A DNA stretch of 64,000 bases from Collinsella sp. An2. Lineage in GTDB: Bacteria > Actinomycetota > Coriobacteriia > Coriobacteriales > Coriobacteriaceae. Shown here in pieces: positions 2,588 to 44,522 of this stretch. The notes under the pieces were generated by a model. It was given only the letters and a program-made list of their open reading frames with translations. It was not told the DNA's origin and made no database searches. The stretch spans positions 1 to 64,000 of the forward strand of contig NZ_NFJW01000008.1 of assembly GCF_002160065.1 (NCBI RefSeq), in the 5' to 3' direction. The first letter of the stretch is position 1; each line of letters begins with the position of its first letter. The position numbers and the translations under genes are program-made.

Positions 2588-3346
2588 ATGGCTAGGCTCG
2601 AAGTAGAGAACGTATCGGTTGCATTCGATGGGCTCAAGGTGCTCGACGACGTGAGCCTTGTTGTAGATTCCGGCGCGGCTGCCTGCTTGCTCGGCCCGTC
2701 GGGATGCGGAAAGACCACGCTGTTCCATGTGGTCGCAGGGCTCTCGCTGCCGGACACGGGGCGGGTGATGCTTGACGATGCCGATATCACCGGACATCCC
2801 GGAAAGCTCGCCTACATGCTTCAGAAGGACCTGTTGTTGCCGGAGAAGACCATCGTCGACAACGTGTCTCTTCCCCTCATCCTTCGCGGGGTTCCGCGTC
2901 GTGAGGCTCGTGCGAAGGCGCTTGAGTACTTTGATACCTTTGGGCTCGCGGGTACAGCCGATCGCTGGCCTGCCGAGCTCTCGGGAGGCATGCGTCAGCG
3001 CGCCGCGCTTCTGCGCAGCTATCTCTTCTCGCAAAAGTTCATGCTCCTTGACGAGCCGTTCTCGGCGCTTGATGCCTTTACCAAGGCGGATATGCATACC
3101 TGGTTTCTCGACGTCGCCGAACGGTTTGGCACCACGGCGCTCATGGTCACGCACGACATCGACGAGGCCCTTGAGATAGCGGACGTGATCTACGTCATGA
3201 GGGGTGCTCCGCAGGCGGGCGAGCCGACGCGTATTGTGGGTGCAGAGCACATCGTGTGTCCGCGCGGCGAGCGGTCCGGCTACACCCTCACCGAGGAGTT
3301 TCTTGAGCATAAGCGTCGTGTTCTTGACCTGTTGGGCCGCGGATAG
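2588..3346 (+). CDS. thiZ: ABC transporter ATPase (ThiZ-like)
   Basis: A 252-residue ABC ATPase with all key motifs: Walker A GPSGCGKTT (36-44), signature LSGGMRQR (131-138), Walker B FMLLDEP (151-157) and switch His189. It resembles the SsuB/TauB/ThiZ group. It is the last gene of the TPP-controlled operon, 30 bp after the binding-protein gene, with a GGGGAG-type ribosome site. It should power uptake through the upstream permease. A stem-loop that may end the operon lies at 3359-3392. Confidence 0.92.
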   Translation: MARLEVENVSVAFDGLKVLDDVSLVVDSGAAACLLGPSGCGKTTLFHVVAGLSLPDTGRVMLDDADITGHPGKLAYMLQKDLLLPEKTIVDNVSLPLILRGVPRREARAKALEYFDTFGLAGTADRWPAELSGGMRQRAALLRSYLFSQKFMLLDEPFSALDAFTKADMHTWFLDVAERFGTTALMVTHDIDEALEIADVIYVMRGAPQAGEPTRIVGAEHIVCPRGERSGYTLTEEFLEHKRRVLDLLGRG

Positions 3347-3392: not shown

Positions 3393-3555
3393 GCCTGTTG
3401 TCTGTTAGCTGACTGCTGGCGAGCGGGGATTCATCGTAGCGGGACTGCTGGCCGTAATGGCTGGGACCCATCGCCGCGGCGTCTGCCGGTTGTGGTGGTG
3501 TCGAAGGCCTGTTGGTTGTGGTGGCTGAGGGCCTGCTGCTGCGAGGCTCGCTGCT

Positions 3556-4017
3556 GGTCAAATTGCGCGCCCGCTGGGCAGGGATAAGCGATTGGGACAC
3601 CCACGTGGTCAATTTGTCCGCCTGCTGGGCATTGCGAGGGCGGAAGGGGAGGGCCTCTGGTCGATTTGGTCGACCCCTGGGCATGCATTTCGCGATCGGG
3701 TGACGCTCCAGGTCAATTTCCTCGCCTCCTGGGCAGACATGCTCCCTTCCGAAGGGCGTTTGCGGCTCCAGGGAGCACCGGGGATGCCCAGGCGGCGCCG
3801 GTTTTGACCATCCGCATCCCCACGCGGCATGGCCCATGCCCAGCCCTCGCCCGAATTGACCACACTTGCATCTCCGGTGTCTCTCGAGTACCCAGCGGGC
3901 CACAGTTTTGACCATCGACTCGCCCCGATTACGTCGAGCTTACCCAGCGGGCAGCATTCTTGACCATCAGCTCGTTCTACATGTGCCGAGCAGGCCCAGA
4001 GGGCGAGGAAAATGACC
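3556..4017. repeat. Array A: nine 25-bp bipartite elements at 52-bp period, two opposed arms
   Basis: Four forward units start at 3556, 3607, 3659 and 3711. Five inverted units start at 3785, 3837, 3889, 3941 and 3993. Each is 25 bp long: it opens GGTC (usually GGTCAA), has a variable middle, and closes with TGGG at positions 20-23 (usually CTGGGCA or CTGGGTA). Start-to-start spacing is 51-52 bp within an arm and 74 bp across the turn, close to 5 and 7 helical turns. The 27-bp spacers show no obvious similarity. The rest of the gene-free stretch 3350-4266 holds a 26-bp-spaced pair of GGTTGTGGTGG (3488 and 3514) and two stem-loops. No gene is supported here because the period is not a multiple of three and no ribosome site fits. 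A second array of the same design lies at 43195-43554. Confidence 0.9.
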
Positions 4018-4150
4018 AAGCGGGGTGCAGCACGTTGGCGAGAAGCGCCCTCAAGGAGCTGGCTTTGGAGGCCAGAGATCCCATCGCACGGGGATCCATC
4101 GCAGTGAACCTTATCTCGCTGCTGTGCAGGCAAGATCGGGCGCACGCGAA

Positions 4151-4266: not shown

Positions 4267-5253
4267 TTACTCGGCCATCTGGGCCTGGACGGCGGTGATG
4301 GCGACGACGCCCACGATGTCGTCGGCAGAGCAGCCGCGGCTGAGGTCGTTCACCGGCTTGGCGATGCCCTGCAGGATGGGGCCGTACGCCTCGGCCTGGC
4401 CGAAACGCTGGACCAGCTTGTAGCCGATGTTGCCGGTCTCGAGGTTCGGGAACACGAGCACGTTGGCATGGCCGGCCACGGTGGACTCGGGAGCCTTCAG
4501 CTTAGCGACTTCGGGCACGATGGCGGCGTCAAGCTGAAGGTCGCCGTCGATGGCGAGCTCGGGAGCCTTGTCCTTGGCGAACGCGGTGGCCTCCTGGACC
4601 TTCTTGGCGGTGTCGCCGCCGGCCGAGCCCATGGTGGAGTAGGAGAGCATGGCGACCTTGGGCTCGACGTCGCCCATGAAGGTCTTGAAGGAGTTAGCAG
4701 AGGCGATGGCGATCTCGGAGAGCTCGTCGGAGGTCGGGTCGATGTTCAGGCCGCAGTCGGCGAACACGAGCGTGCCGTCGGCGCCGAACTCGGGCGTCTT
4801 GGTGCACATGACCATGAAGGCCGAGACGAGCTTGGTGCCCGGGGCGGTCTTCAGGATCTGCAGCGCCGGGCGCAGGGTGTTGGCGGTGGAGTGGCAGGCG
4901 CCGGAGACGAGGCCGTCGGCATCGCCCATCTTGACCATCATGGTGCCGTAGTAGGTGGCGTCCATCATCTGGGCGCGGGCCTGCTCGATGGTCACGCCCT
5001 TCTTGGCGCGCAGCTCGGCGAACTTCTGGGCATAGGCCTCATGCTTGGGAGCGGTCGGCGAGGTGGGGTCGATGACGGTGACACCCTCCACGTCGATCTT
5101 CGCCGGGTCGCCCAGGATCACGAGGTTCGCAAGGCCTTCGGCAACGATCTTCTTCGCCGCCTCGATGGTGCGCGGGTCCTCGCCCTCGGGCAGGACGATG
5201 GTCTTCATGTCCGCCTTTGCGGCAGCCTTCATACGGGATAGGAAATCGCTCAT
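4267..5253 (-). CDS. pta: Phosphate acetyltransferase
   Basis: The 328-residue protein is a single-domain Pta, interconverting acetyl-CoA and acetyl phosphate for acetate fermentation in the cytoplasm. Family features are MKTIVLPEGEDPRTIEAA near the start, GDADGLVSGACHSTANTLRP in the middle, and MLSYSTMGSAGGD with NIGYKLVQRFG towards the end. Length matches the usual 320-340 residues. The start MSDFLSRM is chosen for its GAGGAG ribosome site; longer in-frame starts lack one. Acetate kinase is not adjacent, so it must be encoded elsewhere. The gene is divergent from glf, with AT-rich hexamers between them (TATAAT on the plus strand at 5387-5392 and an opposed TATAAT-like box near 5367-5373). 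Confidence 0.96.
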   Translation of the reverse strand: MSDFLSRMKAAAKADMKTIVLPEGEDPRTIEAAKKIVAEGLANLVILGDPAKIDVEGVTVIDPTSPTAPKHEAYAQKFAELRAKKGVTIEQARAQMMDATYYGTMMVKMGDADGLVSGACHSTANTLRPALQILKTAPGTKLVSAFMVMCTKTPEFGADGTLVFADCGLNIDPTSDELSEIAIASANSFKTFMGDVEPKVAMLSYSTMGSAGGDTAKKVQEATAFAKDKAPELAIDGDLQLDAAIVPEVAKLKAPESTVAGHANVLVFPNLETGNIGYKLVQRFGQAEAYGPILQGIAKPVNDLSRGCSADDIVGVVAITAVQAQMAE

Positions 5254-38566: not shown

Positions 38567-41500
38567 TTGAATTCCCGTTCTGGGGGGGGGGACGCTCATT
38601 CTGAGCATTTGACGGGGGAGCGGGGACGCTGCCGCGCTCACGCAATGTCCGTTCTCGCGTTGGTGCTTGCGGCGCTTTTGGCGTGGTGTGTGGTCCCGGG
38701 TGCGCTGGGCGAATCTGTGGCCCAGGCGGCGACGCTTTCCGAGGTGCTAGGTGCTACTGTTCGAATGGGGGCGCCCGCTGACGGCGATACCGTGCAGGCG
38801 TTGATTGACGCGCTGCCCACGGCGGAGGCCTTGGCGTCGATGTCCCAGGACGAACAATCGGCGGTTTACGACCAGGTGCAGACGACCTACGAGGCCTACA
38901 ACGCCCTTACCGACGAGCAGAAAGAGCAGATCACCGGGACGGAGGTTATCAACGACCTCTTTGCCGTGTTCAATGGCATGACGACGCTGGCGGCAGAAGA
39001 AACTGGCTTTACCTATACCACGGAGGCAAATCAAACTAAAACGACTACTGATGCCATCCTAAGTCTCATTGGTCAGTCTGAACAAAGCGACAAGTTCACA
39101 GTGACACAGGGCAATGGAACAAGTATTACATCAGATCGGGATTTAACGCTTGCTGGTAATATTACAGTAACGGGAGATATATCGACTTCAGGTAGTAAGT
39201 TGACCATTTCAAGTGGAAATTTTGTTGCAGGCGGAAAAATCAGCAGTCAAGTTCAACTTGCTATCTCTGGCGGACATGTGACGGTATCTAGCATTGCCAT
39301 AACTGGAACTTTGAATGGCGGTACTGGATGTACTCTCAATATTACTGGGGGCGTCGTTGACGTAAACTCAATCACACTCCAAAATAGCGGCACTGGTCCC
39401 GCAACTTTTACCGTCAACGGAAACAGCGCAGTGGTATTTGCCAACGAGGTGTCGGTAACTGCAGGCGGAACCGCCTCGAAAAACTATCAAAACGGCGTGG
39501 TATTTGAAGGCACAAGCGGCACCGTCTACGGCAGCGTCACCCTCCCCGACGATGTGACCATCCCGGAGGGTTACACCCTCACCATCCCCAGCGGCGCCAG
39601 CCTGACCGTGCCCAGCGGCACAACGCTGACCAACGAAGGCACCGTTACCGTAGAGGACGGCGGCACCTTCACCAACAGCGGCACCATTGAGGACTATGGG
39701 ACGATCACCGGCACGGTAGGCGGCATTACACCGCAACGCCCGGCCACAGTTTCCGTGACTGTAACCCCCGCCACCGCCACCTACGGCTCCACCGTTACTC
39801 CAATGGCCACGGTCGCAGGCGGCTCCGGGGTGGTCAATGACGGCACCGTGACCTTCTATCAGGGAACGGATACAACCGGCGCCCCGCTGAACAGCACGCC
39901 CGCAAATGTATCCAACGGCACCGCAACGTATGAGCTGGAGTTGACCGGCGCCAACTGGAAACCCGGCACCTACACCATCGCCGCCGTCTACAGCGGCGGC
40001 GCCGGCCTGCTGGGGAACACCGGCACCGCCCCCCTCACCGTGTCCAAGGCGACGACCGACGCAACGCCAGTTGGGCCCATTTCGTCATCCAGTCGATCTG
40101 AAACCGGCATAACGCTGAATACAGTTTCTGATGGCAACATCGGCACCTATGGCGAGATTCAATACGGCTATGTGACAGGTACGGAGACTGAGCCAGGCCA
40201 CTGGCAGGACGGCGCCGCATTTACCAACCTGAACCCCGGCACAGACTACACCTTCTACACCCGATACGCCGGAAATGACTACTATAACCCATCCGATCCC
40301 AGCACTACCGGCCTGACCGTCACCACCCTGCCACAAATTATGACCACCAGCCTGGACGACGGAACGGTGGGCGTGTACTATTCCCAAGCCCTGAAAGCCA
40401 ATGTGGAGACCGGCAAGACCGTGACCTGGGAGCTTGCTACCGGCTCCACGTTGCCCGCCGGATTGACACTGAGCAACGACGGCACCATCACGGGCACGCC
40501 AGAGGGGACGGCTGCCAACCACAATTTCACCGTCCAGGCAACCATACAAGGCGGCGCGCCCGGCAGTGAAAACCCACATGACCTTGCGAGCCTGTCCATC
40601 ACCATCAACGCCGGTACGCCGGACATCACGGCCACTACATACAAGGGCGAGGACCAGACCAGCACATTCACCTACGGCGACACCATCACGGTCACCGGCA
40701 CGATTGCCGCCTCCAGCATGCCGCCAGCGGCCAGCAACGGTATCAACGCCATCACCGAACCGGCGCAGGATCAAGTGGGGCTGTATGTGTCGGGAAATGA
40801 TAGCCTGATTGCCACGGCGAATGTCACCGACGGCAGCTTTACCCTGAAATACAATACCGCTGACAAGGCTATCCCGACAGGCCAGCCGCAGACCCTCACG
40901 GTAAAATACGGCGGCAGCAGCACTCTAAACAGCGGCTCTACCACGGTGCAGATCACCCTGAACAAGAAGGCGGTAACGGCGCAGGTGCAGGGCGCCATTA
41001 CCAAGGTCTACAACGGCAACACCGACGCGGCGGTTTCTCTGGCCGTGGCTGCGGACGATCTTGTAAAGAGCACAGATAACATCATCGTGACTGGCACCGG
41101 TACCTACCAAAGCGCCGGGGTGGGGACAAATATCCCCGTCACCGTTAGCATTACGGGAACCAGCGGCAACGACACGGACTGGTACACGGTCACCGCCCCC
41201 ACCGGCGTTACCGGTTCCATCATGCAGAGCAGTACCGAACTAAAGGTCGAGCCGTCTAGCGCGAGCCTCACCTACGGCGACACCCTCACGCTTACCGTAG
41301 CACCGTGTGCCACAGGGGAGGCACCAGCGCAGAATACACTGCTCGCGGGATTGCACAGGCTCGTTGACCTACTGACGGACGCGAATGGCGACACCGTTGA
41401 GCTCTACAACGGCGATAAGCTCCTTGCCGGTACGAGCAAAAAGAACGCGGACGGCTCCTACACCCTGACGTACAACACGGCGGACAAGGGCCTGTCCGTC

Positions 41501-42961
41501 GGGAACAACACGCTGACCGTCAAGTTCAACGGCGACACCAACATGGTCGCCAGCGAGGCAAGCGTTACCGTGACGTTGAAGCGGAAGGAGGCTACCGCCT
41601 CCGTCTCCGGTACGCCGAGCAAGACGTACGACAGCGCGACGGACGTCACGGTTAGCTTGGCGTTTGATAACGGTGTGCTGGTGGATGGCGATAGCTTTAC
41701 GGGTACCGTTGCCGGCAGCTTCAGCGATGCGAACGCGGGGGAGGGTAAGTCCATCACTCTGGGCACCACCCCCACATGGTCGAATGACACCATTGCCGGG
41801 TTCTATGACATCGCCCTGCCGGGCAACGTCACTGGAAATATCCTCAAGGCGCGTCCCGGGCTGTCGCTCGCCGCAGATCACGGCCAGCTGCTGGGCGGCG
41901 GGCGCGTGGTCCTTACGATCGAGGGGCTTCCCGAGGGCGCGGCGGCAGAAGTCTCGTGCTCCGACTCGTCTATCACGGTGACGGGGGAGGGCTCCTCGTG
42001 GGAGGCCTACCTGCCCAACCGGTCGACGGAATACACCTTCATGGCCACCTCGTCCGAGACCGTCAACTACAGCGCGGGGCAGGCATCCTGTTCCGTGGAT
42101 GTCTCCTACTCGGCCCCGCCGGTGCCGACCTACCCGCCGACGGTCGACGCGGGGGCGGGCGGCACCGTCGAGGTCTCGCCCGCGCGCCCGCATAAGGACC
42201 AGACGGTCACCGTCGAGCCGGTCCCCGACGAGGGGCAGGAGGTCCGCGAGGTCGTGGTGACCGACAAGGACGGGAAGCCCGTCGAGGTCGTCGACAACGG
42301 CGACGGCACGTGGTCGTTCGTCCAGCCCGCGGGCAAGGTGATCATCGAGGTCTCCTTCGGCTGCGACGGCGGGGAGCTCTGCGCGACGCACGGCTTCGTC
42401 GACGTCGACCAGGGCGCGTGGTACCACGACGCAATCGACTGGGCCGTGGATGCCGGCGTTCTCCACGGCTACGACGGCACCGGCCTCATGGGCCCCGACG
42501 ACGTGCTCACCCGCGCCCAGCTGGCCACGATCATCTCCAACGTCGAGGGCGCCGCCCCCGGCAACCCCTCGGCGCTCGACGGCTTCACGGACGCTGACCC
42601 CGACGCCTGGTACGCTGGGACCCTCTCCTGGGCCGTCTCCGAGGGACTCTTCTCCGGCTACGACGGCACCTCCCTCATGGACCCCGACGGCGCCCTCACG
42701 CGCGAGCAAGCCGCAGCGGTGCTCATGCGCTGGGCCGCCCTGCGCGGGGAGGACACGTCGCAGCGCGCTGACCTCTCGGACTACCCGGATGCGACGGACG
42801 TCTCCCCCTGGGCCCGCGAGTGCATGAGCTGGGCGGTGGCGACGGGCGTCGTCTCCGGCGTCGAGCGCGCGGACGGCTCGCCCGCCATCCTCGACCCGGT
42901 GGGCACCGCTACCCGCGCTCAGGCCGCGGCTCTCATGATGCGACTGCTGGCGGGGGAGTAG
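38567..42961 (+). CDS. Large SLH-anchored surface protein with Ig-like repeats
   Basis: The frame runs 1464 residues. A signal-like stretch (SVLALVLAALLAWCVV, ending near VAQA) is followed by a helical segment, a Thr/Gly-rich beta-repeat region, several Ig-like modules (LPAGLTLSNDGTITGTP is typical of a putative-Ig fold), and three SLH repeats at the C-terminus (HGFVDVDQGAWYHDAIDWAV, and copies near 1340 and 1400) that bind cell-wall polymers. It should be a surface adhesin or S-layer-associated protein. No good start lies in frame: 38567 is TTG and ATG 38645 lacks a ribosome site. ATG 38551, with GAGGAAAGG upstream, is one base out of frame across G10. Base composition changes along the gene: AT-rich near 39000-39450, GC-rich after 42100. 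Confidence 0.85.
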   Translation: MNSRSGGGDAHSEHLTGERGRCRAHAMSVLALVLAALLAWCVVPGALGESVAQAATLSEVLGATVRMGAPADGDTVQALIDALPTAEALASMSQDEQSAVYDQVQTTYEAYNALTDEQKEQITGTEVINDLFAVFNGMTTLAAEETGFTYTTEANQTKTTTDAILSLIGQSEQSDKFTVTQGNGTSITSDRDLTLAGNITVTGDISTSGSKLTISSGNFVAGGKISSQVQLAISGGHVTVSSIAITGTLNGGTGCTLNITGGVVDVNSITLQNSGTGPATFTVNGNSAVVFANEVSVTAGGTASKNYQNGVVFEGTSGTVYGSVTLPDDVTIPEGYTLTIPSGASLTVPSGTTLTNEGTVTVEDGGTFTNSGTIEDYGTITGTVGGITPQRPATVSVTVTPATATYGSTVTPMATVAGGSGVVNDGTVTFYQGTDTTGAPLNSTPANVSNGTATYELELTGANWKPGTYTIAAVYSGGAGLLGNTGTAPLTVSKATTDATPVGPISSSSRSETGITLNTVSDGNIGTYGEIQYGYVTGTETEPGHWQDGAAFTNLNPGTDYTFYTRYAGNDYYNPSDPSTTGLTVTTLPQIMTTSLDDGTVGVYYSQALKANVETGKTVTWELATGSTLPAGLTLSNDGTITGTPEGTAANHNFTVQATIQGGAPGSENPHDLASLSITINAGTPDITATTYKGEDQTSTFTYGDTITVTGTIAASSMPPAASNGINAITEPAQDQVGLYVSGNDSLIATANVTDGSFTLKYNTADKAIPTGQPQTLTVKYGGSSTLNSGSTTVQITLNKKAVTAQVQGAITKVYNGNTDAAVSLAVAADDLVKSTDNIIVTGTGTYQSAGVGTNIPVTVSITGTSGNDTDWYTVTAPTGVTGSIMQSSTELKVEPSSASLTYGDTLTLTVAPCATGEAPAQNTLLAGLHRLVDLLTDANGDTVELYNGDKLLAGTSKKNADGSYTLTYNTADKGLSVGNNTLTVKFNGDTNMVASEASVTVTLKRKEATASVSGTPSKTYDSATDVTVSLAFDNGVLVDGDSFTGTVAGSFSDANAGEGKSITLGTTPTWSNDTIAGFYDIALPGNVTGNILKARPGLSLAADHGQLLGGGRVVLTIEGLPEGAAAEVSCSDSSITVTGEGSSWEAYLPNRSTEYTFMATSSETVNYSAGQASCSVDVSYSAPPVPTYPPTVDAGAGGTVEVSPARPHKDQTVTVEPVPDEGQEVREVVVTDKDGKPVEVVDNGDGTWSFVQPAGKVIIEVSFGCDGGELCATHGFVDVDQGAWYHDAIDWAVDAGVLHGYDGTGLMGPDDVLTRAQLATIISNVEGAAPGNPSALDGFTDADPDAWYAGTLSWAVSEGLFSGYDGTSLMDPDGALTREQAAAVLMRWAALRGEDTSQRADLSDYPDATDVSPWARECMSWAVATGVVSGVERADGSPAILDPVGTATRAQAAALMMRLLAGE
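38582..38591 (+). repeat. G10 homopolymer at the 5' end of the surface-protein gene
   Basis: Ten consecutive G follow TTCT. The frame from ATG 38551 (with GAGGAAAGG upstream) reads into a TGA at 38602 with ten G; with nine G it would join the long surface-protein frame and supply a start just before the signal-like stretch. This is the usual design of a slippage-driven phase switch. Sequencing error in a homopolymer is the main alternative. Confidence 0.9.
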
Positions 42962-43028: not shown

Positions 43029-43180
43029 GTCGGAAGTTCGGTGCCCTCGTAGAAAGTTGGGTGCGTCTTCCGTCCAAATAATCCCCGAAAGCGCCTCTCG
43101 TTTGGACGATTCGACTACCAAACTTCCACGGGGCGCCCCCAACTTCCACGGGGCGCCCCCAACTTCCACGGGGCGCCCCG
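43029..43180. repeat. 20-bp repeats in two opposed arms
   Basis: Three identical or near-identical 20-bp units in a row (43121, 43141, 43161) read AACTTCCACGGGGCGCCCC. Two diverged units in the opposite orientation start near 43029 and 43049 (GTCGGAAGTTCGGTGCC and GTAGAAAGTTGGGTGCG). The 20-bp period is close to two helical turns, and the arms face each other like those of array B directly downstream. Confidence 0.75.
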
Positions 43181-43194
43181 CCTCCTTTCTGCAT

Positions 43195-43554
43195 GGTCAA
43201 TACATGCTACCGCTGGGCAGGAACCCTGCGGTGGAGGAGGGGTGGTGGTCAATGTGTGTCTCTCCTGGGCAGTCCAGGAGCTTGTCAAAGGGTCTCGCAG
43301 CATTAAAGTCGATCATTTTTACCCAGGCGATGCGCAATTTGACCAGGAGTGACGCCTCGGGGGGATGTCGTCTGCCCAGAGGTCCCTTCTTTCGACCATC
43401 ATCTCTCCCCGAACGCTTCGCCCGTACCCAAACGGCGAATCTTTTGACCATCGCTGCATCCCTGGGCGCCTTACTTGTGCCCAGGCGGCAGGCCCTTTGA
43501 CCGCGAGCCATCCCCGTGTAGCTCGCCTGTACCCAGGCGGCACCAGTACTGACC
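43195..43554. repeat. Array B: seven 25-bp bipartite elements at 52-bp period, two opposed arms
   Basis: Two forward units start at 43195 and 43247; five inverted units start at 43320, 43373, 43425, 43478 and 43530. Each is 25 bp, with GGTC at one end (mostly GGTCAA) and TGGG at the other (mostly CTGGGCA or CTGGGTA), as in array A. Spacing is 52-53 bp within arms and 73 bp across the turn, nearly the same as array A (74 bp). Inner bases and spacers are not conserved. All 16 units of the two arrays share GGTC at positions 1-4 and TGGG at 20-23. Confidence 0.9.
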
Positions 43555-43618
43555 ATTGACTACCGCAGCGTGTCGGCAACTTGTCTGTATTCCGCGACAC
43601 ACAACCTGCGGTTGCAGC

Positions 43619-44093: not shown

Positions 44094-44522
44094 ATGCTGA
44101 CCGGCACATACGAGCGCAATCTCGATGCCAAAGGTCGCCTTTCCCTGCCTGCAGCCGTCCGCAACGAGCTCGGTGAGCATGTTCGCGTGTTGCCCGCCCC
44201 GGATGTCGAGGCCCTGTACGTGTTCTCTGAGAGCGAGTATGGGAACTGGGTCGACAGCCTTTTCGAGAAGCGTGGGGGATTTAACCCGCGCAGCCCGGAA
44301 GACCAGGATCTCAGACGTATGCTCAACGCGATGGCGGCGCCGATGGATATCGACTCCGCCTCGCGTATAGGCCTCTCGGACACGCTTCGTGCGAGCAAAC
44401 ACCTCTCGCGCGAGGTCACGGTGGTTGGCAACGCCGACCATCTGGAGGTCTGGGACCGTGCGACGTGGAACAAGCGCCTTGCAGAGTCGCAGGACAAGCT
44501 CATGGCGCTCTTCTTCTCGTAA
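44094..44522 (+). CDS. mraZ: Transcriptional regulator MraZ
   Basis: The 142-residue protein has the duplicated AbrB-like fold: TGTYERNLDAKGRLSLPAAV in the first half and RIGLSDTLRASKHLSREVTV in the second. It is a DNA-binding regulator of the division and cell-wall cluster it heads. GAGGAGGGG precedes the start; GTG 44091 directly before ATG 44094 is an alternative. rsmH follows after 21 bp. Confidence 0.95.
   Translation: MLTGTYERNLDAKGRLSLPAAVRNELGEHVRVLPAPDVEALYVFSESEYGNWVDSLFEKRGGFNPRSPEDQDLRRMLNAMAAPMDIDSASRIGLSDTLRASKHLSREVTVVGNADHLEVWDRATWNKRLAESQDKLMALFFS

Follow-up and report, generated by a model that had tools for sequence, protein, structure and literature searches.

What kind of element is formed by the short repeated units that lie between the gene for a large surface protein and mraZ, running first in one direction and then in the other, and why does the same layout stand a second time in the window (the whole stretch of 64,000 nucleotides that was analysed)? 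The first-pass annotation had read the two loci, here called array A and array B, as members of a real and undescribed element family, perhaps a chromosome-organising site or a structured RNA locus. The coordinates of both arrays and of the genes next to them are collected in Table 1.

Table 1. Repeat arrays of the window and their neighbouring genes (window positions).
Feature	Position	Strand	Remarks
ABC transporter ATPase gene, 5' of array A	2588..3346	+	
Array A	3555-4018		4 forward and 5 reverse units
Array A forward units (n=4)	3555..3735	+	starts 3555, 3606, 3658, 3710
Array A turn	3736..3784		49-bp gap between units; 75 bp from start to start
Array A reverse units (n=5)	3785..4018	-	starts 3785, 3837, 3889, 3941, 3993
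Putative phosphate acetyltransferase gene (pta), convergent, 3' of array A	4267..5253	-	name by reading of the sequence, no profile search
Large surface protein gene, 5' of array B	38567..42961	+	SLH, YDG and Big_3_5 domains
Array B	43194-43555		2 forward and 5 reverse units
Array B forward unit 1	43194..43219	+	TGGTCAATACATGCTACCGCTGGGCA
Array B forward unit 2	43246..43271	+	
Array B turn	43272..43319		48-bp gap from last forward unit to first reverse unit; 74 bp (7 helical turns) from start to start
Array B reverse unit 1	43320..43345	-	
Array B reverse unit 2	43373..43398	-	TGGTCGAAAGAAGGGACCTCTGGGCA, 1 mismatch
Array B reverse unit 3	43425..43450	-	
Array B reverse unit 4	43478..43503	-	CGGTCAAAGGGCCTGCCGCCTGGGCA, 1 mismatch
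Array B reverse unit 5	43530..43555	-	
mraZ, first gene of the dcw cluster, 3' of array B	44094..44522	+	

The seven units described for array B in the first-pass annotation were all confirmed, and the steps between them measure 52-53 bp as had been stated. The unit itself is 26 bp long and not 25 bp, and the turn is present but had been given as 73 bp, one base pair less than its size from start to start. Each site follows the pattern TGGTCA-N14-TGGGYA, in which the half-sites TGGTCA and TGGGYA stand in direct orientation, 20 bp or two helical turns apart; in the Enorma unit the interior is partially conserved and the linker weakly. The window holds 12 exact matches to TGGTCAN{11,14}TGGGYA compared to 0.01 expected from shuffles, and one of the 12, at 39609, is solitary and chance-like. 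Array B begins 233 bp past the end of the surface protein gene, and directly 5' of the array (window 43118-43179) there are three 20-bp copies of CAACTTCCACGGGGCGCCCC arranged head-to-tail. Paralogous large surface proteins adjoin three of 15 arrays (window:38567-42961, L033:187-4050, L037:4995-8999); they share 38-63% identity, and SLH and Big domains are found in the window copy. A plain duplication of array A into array B was rejected, in line with the earlier reading, as the flanks of the two arrays do not align beyond short matches.

The window comes from one of two Enorma species (G000, the other being G002), and arrays of the same kind were also detected in two genomes of a second genus (g4; G009 and G021). 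A count over the genome, which the first-pass annotation had called for, gave about 15 arrays in G000: the site pattern has 74 matches genome-wide, compared to 1 with a reversed-pattern control, and nearly all of them fall into these arrays. The density is about 15 arrays per 2.5 Mb, mostly at gene ends, and a third array on the contig of the window lies beyond it, at contig positions 101836-102248. The arrays of G000 consist of 2-5 forward units, a turn and then 2-5 reverse units, so that 'exactly five inverted units' is true for arrays A and B but not for the others; array L042 is degenerate. In the second genus the unit reads TGGTCAcgag..TATGGGYR (G009), and the linker retains CGTAGCA.

Across the four genomes, 176 out of 180 same-strand steps are 51-53 bp long, and the distances from forward to reverse units are 53, 64, 74/75, 84, 116, 127 and 137/138 bp. 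These distances are whole helical turns (Rayleigh R 0.96, peak at a period of 10.5 bp), and for five distinct distance classes a random draw reaches the same phasing with p 0.0006. The sites repeat every five turns, the whole array has an approximate two-fold symmetry, and a reverse-then-forward order was never found within an array of the four genomes. As the forward and reverse sets are opposed at whole helical turns, every site is on the same face of the double helix, as is typical of sites for proteins that line up along one side of the DNA.

Six orthologous arrays of G009 and G021 were aligned, and their half-sites are 95.6% identical, followed by unit interiors with 80.6%, the linker motif with 79%, turns with 75%, flanks with 69% and other linkers with 66%. 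Judged from this alignment, the half-sites are held by purifying selection while the surrounding DNA drifts. Several arrays of G000 and G002 likewise stand at orthologous places with changed interiors. Two G009 arrays are absent from G021 at otherwise collinear places, and the junctions are ragged and without target duplication. The conserved orthologous arrays together with these two absences indicate that arrays are gained or lost whole and that standing ones are maintained. An insertion sequence or MITE was rejected, since no common tip or target-site duplication was seen by inspection and the two empty sites have ragged edges. The array at valS was not found in other species of that array's genus, and an array in front of mraZ also proved not to be general in the family: the other family genomes read have none at mraZ, with one unit retained in G002.

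Units of the same array are slightly more alike than units of different arrays (0.455 vs 0.39), which suggests local copying. At L039:4377-6907 in G000, the two arrays next to the nuclease-fold gene described below share 83% identity over 248 bp, a stretch that takes in the linkers, and after the second array the last part of the preceding gene is repeated over 68 bp. By its sequence, this similarity is a recent duplication or conversion.

Pairing of forward with reverse units could also produce a structured RNA or a cruciform, and the folding z-scores of -4.8 for array A and -2.9 for array B seem to favour such a structure. However, the low folding energy of both arrays results from the inverted layout by itself, and complementarity between symmetric partners barely exceeds that between non-partners, with identities of 0.44 vs 0.42 in Enorma (p 0.11) and 0.48 vs 0.43 in G009 (p 0.016). 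The spacing tracks the helical repeat of DNA, and at gathering scores no Rfam family matches the window. We therefore depart from the first-pass annotation on this point and hold an RNA or cruciform to be very improbable. The whole-turn phasing and the half-site conservation point to protein sites on DNA, and not to structured RNA or duplication; as far as can be read from sequence, selection maintains the arrays as DNA sites for a protein that contacts the helix from one face. The view that they form a real, undescribed element family and are not the product of decay is borne out by the roughly 15 arrays, the 74 matches against 1 in the control, the half-site conservation and further array families in two other genomes (G066 and G056, described below). 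Nothing on such repeats in Coriobacteriia was found in the open papers.

The genes flanking the arrays are diverse and include pta, mraZ, rplL, ilvC, ruvX, ftsE, valS, tyrS and others, named partly by profile searches and partly by reading of translations. With a crude gene finder, on which the depletion rests, 3 out of 51 arrays lie between divergent genes (5 of 53 in the automatic count, before two spurious small ORFs were discounted), compared to 41 out of 183 long gaps in the relative G056. This speaks against the arrays as promoters. Hairpins occur in or near the turn in 12 of 40 arrays and mostly in the flank, thus a terminator is no constant part of the array.

A candidate for the protein that reads the sites is a 329-aa uncharacterised protein encoded between two arrays in G000. 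Its family is the only one that adjoins arrays in both genera, besides a TyrS-like gene across the same array. Among 397 genomes of the order, orthologs with at least 50% identity were found in G000, G002, G009 and G021 only, and arrays of the TGGTCA-N14-TGGGYA type in exactly the same four; a single match with 2 mismatches in G189 was taken as chance. The protein gene adjoins an array in all four array-bearing genomes, its gene neighbourhoods differ between the two genera, and the four proteins form one clade with a support of 100/99. As the four positive genomes make up two clades only, the phyletic match counts as two events and not as four. The neighbours of the gene were read as DUF6020, YebC and TyrS, some of them by profile search, and no AbiEii-type toxin was recognised among them. 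No array of the Enorma kind was found within 1.5 kb of paralogs of the protein. Near a paralog in G006 there is a plain 53-bp tandem repeat.

This distribution also bears on the idea that the arrays serve another chromosome organiser (ParB-, SMC-loader- or NAP-like) as sites, with the nuclease gene as a mere neighbour. About 15 sites in 2.5 Mb, phased and symmetric and for the most part located where genes end, would suit such an organiser, but the exact co-occurrence with the candidate protein and the conserved adjacency in two genera argue against it. The motifs are moreover private to each lineage, unlike those of a universal factor such as ParB, and we give this idea little weight.

The AlphaFold2 model of the candidate protein is confident (pLDDT 85.8, pTM 0.87). 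In VIA-align, its residues 1-185 resemble the AbiEi antitoxin (6y8q) with Z 8.0, in an alignment that takes in residues 64-195 only of 6y8q and leaves the AbiEi winged helix unmatched. Residues 190-296 resemble the catalytic domain of I-Bth0305I (3r3p; Z 8.6, 93 residues, rmsd 2.7) and also Vsr (Z 6.5). Foldseek alone gave no significant match for the model, no Pfam or NCBIfam family was reached at cut-off (there were weak MTES_1575/DUF559 matches only), and no helix-turn-helix was recognised in the predicted protein. Four residues, E193, D230, H248 and D256, are invariant in 20 sequences and were assigned to the EDxHD motif by reading, not by superposed active sites. I-Bth0305I is reported to form a dimer on a target nearly 60 bp long (PMC3943268), a length that by analogy would fit the 52-bp period of the arrays. 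Taking gene content and predicted folds together, the AbiEi-EDxHD protein is most likely the cooperative binder of the arrays. A phage or plasmid origin was rejected, as the protein is absent from the phage collection and the lone pattern match on a viral contig is a coding tandem duplication; the plasmid collection yielded one distant match of 26% to the protein, in a large Collinsella 'plasmid' record.

Besides the four genomes with orthologs, two genomes with more distant relatives of the protein have array families of their own. G066, which encodes the sister protein of the four-protein clade, contains opposed arrays of the unrelated unit CCCCCAATNNAGGGGAGGTTTG, with 51 matches (27 and 24 by strand) and 0 in the control. 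Their period of 41-42 bp corresponds to four turns, and the turn is mostly 124-125 bp long, in other cases 134 or 166-167 bp. The unit is absent from 64 of the 66 other family genomes, with one stray match each in G000 and G024. Unlike the Enorma unit, the G066 units (L306:60-290, L293 = G066:C8:20946-21176) can form a AAACCTCCCC/GGGGAGGTTT hairpin, and this family may share features with REP-like repeats. In G056, where two relatives are encoded, TGGACAAATCTGCCAGATAATGACGAT, again an unrelated site and at least 27 bp long, forms about 11 opposed pairs on two contigs, at distances of 156/157, 166/168 or 177 bp; TGGACAAATCTGCCAGATAATGACGAT was not found in any other family genome. Neither in G056 nor in G066 are the arrays located beside the genes for the relatives of the protein. 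G004, a genome without a relative, showed no similar arrays in 400 kb, only coding-gene copies and low-level matches.

The scan for unknown motifs covered parts of G056, G066 and G004. The G066 arrays were missed by the lag scan, and together with the G056 pairs they were found by a gapped-hexamer clustering scan, which requires three places and therefore leaves the window with its two arrays unflagged. As G056 and G066 were chosen by their protein and one negative genome was read, it is suggestive that the array geometry is common to the lineages and the site sequence private to each.

Other dispersed repeats were observed in these genomes. G056 has a second family (L225-L261, G056:C1, positions 646833, 664230, 668797 and 732339, within 90 kb) of 2-5 tandem units with a period of 61-62 and the pattern GGGGAAG..CCCAT..TCCCCA, near-palindromic inside. 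Near mraZ or valS of other Coriobacteriaceae (L132:2443-2542; L150; L130:971-1124) there are dispersed palindrome-ended repeats of 26-33 bp, which read TGACA..TAGGACGGGTCC..TGTCA in G003 and TGAGACAG..CTGTCTCA in G006.

On balance, we favour the reading that arrays A and B belong to a set of about 15 chromosomal arrays of sites for one sequence-specific protein, with the AbiEi-like protein with an EDxHD (Vsr-fold) domain as the best candidate, in a domesticated architectural role. Several molecules of the protein would occupy neighbouring units on either flank and come together at the turn, and the resulting nucleoprotein complex, about 350-450 bp in extent, would bend or bridge the DNA. The weakest step is the purpose, most likely that of a domesticated, vertically inherited system by which transcription units are marked or insulated at their ends, as a part of chromosome architecture. 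We prefer such a role because selection acts on the half-sites and the arrays keep away from promoter regions. As a counterpoint, a protein with a purely architectural role would hardly be expected to have an invariant nuclease site. As a tentative generalisation, held with somewhat less than even confidence, Coriobacteriaceae may possess a system of an AbiEi-EDxHD protein and 10-20 dispersed, convergent, helically phased arrays, with a sequence private to each protein lineage, a fast-diversifying pair in an architectural or self-marking role. Since many genomes of the family encode paralogs, one would expect most of them to contain arrays, which counts against the pairing of protein and arrays.

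The main alternative is that the same pair is selfish, in a REPtron-like or homing-type manner: the nuclease would recognise the arrays and aid their spread or persistence, as RAYT supposedly does for REPINs, with no function for the host. In line with this, the nuclease-fold gene is single-copy and adjoins the very elements that are also scattered between other genes, its predicted product has an EDxHD fold as in a homing endonuclease, whole arrays are present in one species and missing in the next at the two compared sites, and the 83% identical arrays beside the gene in G000 have a duplicated flank. However, there is no terminal repeat beyond the units and no target-site duplication, the empty sites are ragged, and array copies have little in common but the half-sites. 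These half-sites are under purifying selection in old orthologous arrays, and array copies are missing from the phage, plasmid and viral collections. We regard a selfish pair as less likely than the architectural reading.

In REPIN-RAYT systems (REPtrons), lineage-specific repeats are dispersed between genes and a single-copy nuclease gene lies beside its own repeats (PMC3116915, PMC8266576). The arrays are likewise dispersed between genes and also found beside a nuclease-fold gene, and each lineage has its own repeat. In contrast to REPINs, the unit has direct and not inverted half-sites, forms no palindromic hairpin (REP), and is helically phased over hundreds of bp. RAYT is an HUH/Y1 enzyme that acts on single-stranded hairpins, whereas the candidate protein combines an AbiEi-like domain with a Vsr-type/EDxHD fold. 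Inverted repeats of 23 bp are the targets of AbiEi proteins, with or without cooperativity (PMC7319586). The predicted fold of the N-terminal 185 residues of the candidate is like that of AbiEi-family antitoxins (AbiEi, Rv2827c), but the candidate has an added nuclease-fold domain, and its putative sites are dispersed over the genome where those of AbiEi lie at one promoter. In the alignment of the model with 6y8q no winged-helix domain was matched, and among the neighbours that were read no AbiEii-type (DUF1814) toxin was recognised. The C-terminal fold and the invariant E, D, H and D are shared with the EDxHD homing endonuclease I-Bth0305I, from which the candidate differs as a stand-alone chromosomal gene with no intron or intein noticed and with many chromosomal arrays as putative sites instead of one target. 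CRISPR arrays consist of near-identical direct repeats in one orientation, unlike the arrays described here, which are conserved in the half-sites only and have opposed orientations.

BIMEs, Ter-Tus and the Sal boxes of TTF-I are repeated sites at the ends of transcription units or opposed polar sites. Their placement or polarity is similar to that of the arrays, their number, period and phasing differ, and no shared sequence or protein was seen. The candidate protein belongs to a large uncharacterised family, and if the pair is confirmed, it would offer a function for many paralogs and a clean case of co-evolution between a protein and its sites in gut bacteria. Known sites on bacterial chromosomes are mostly single and short with one conserved sequence, such as parS and dif, or are mobile repeats. 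The design of the sites described here combines a strict geometry, with one helix face, opposed polarity and whole-turn distances, with a sequence that is free to differ between relatives.
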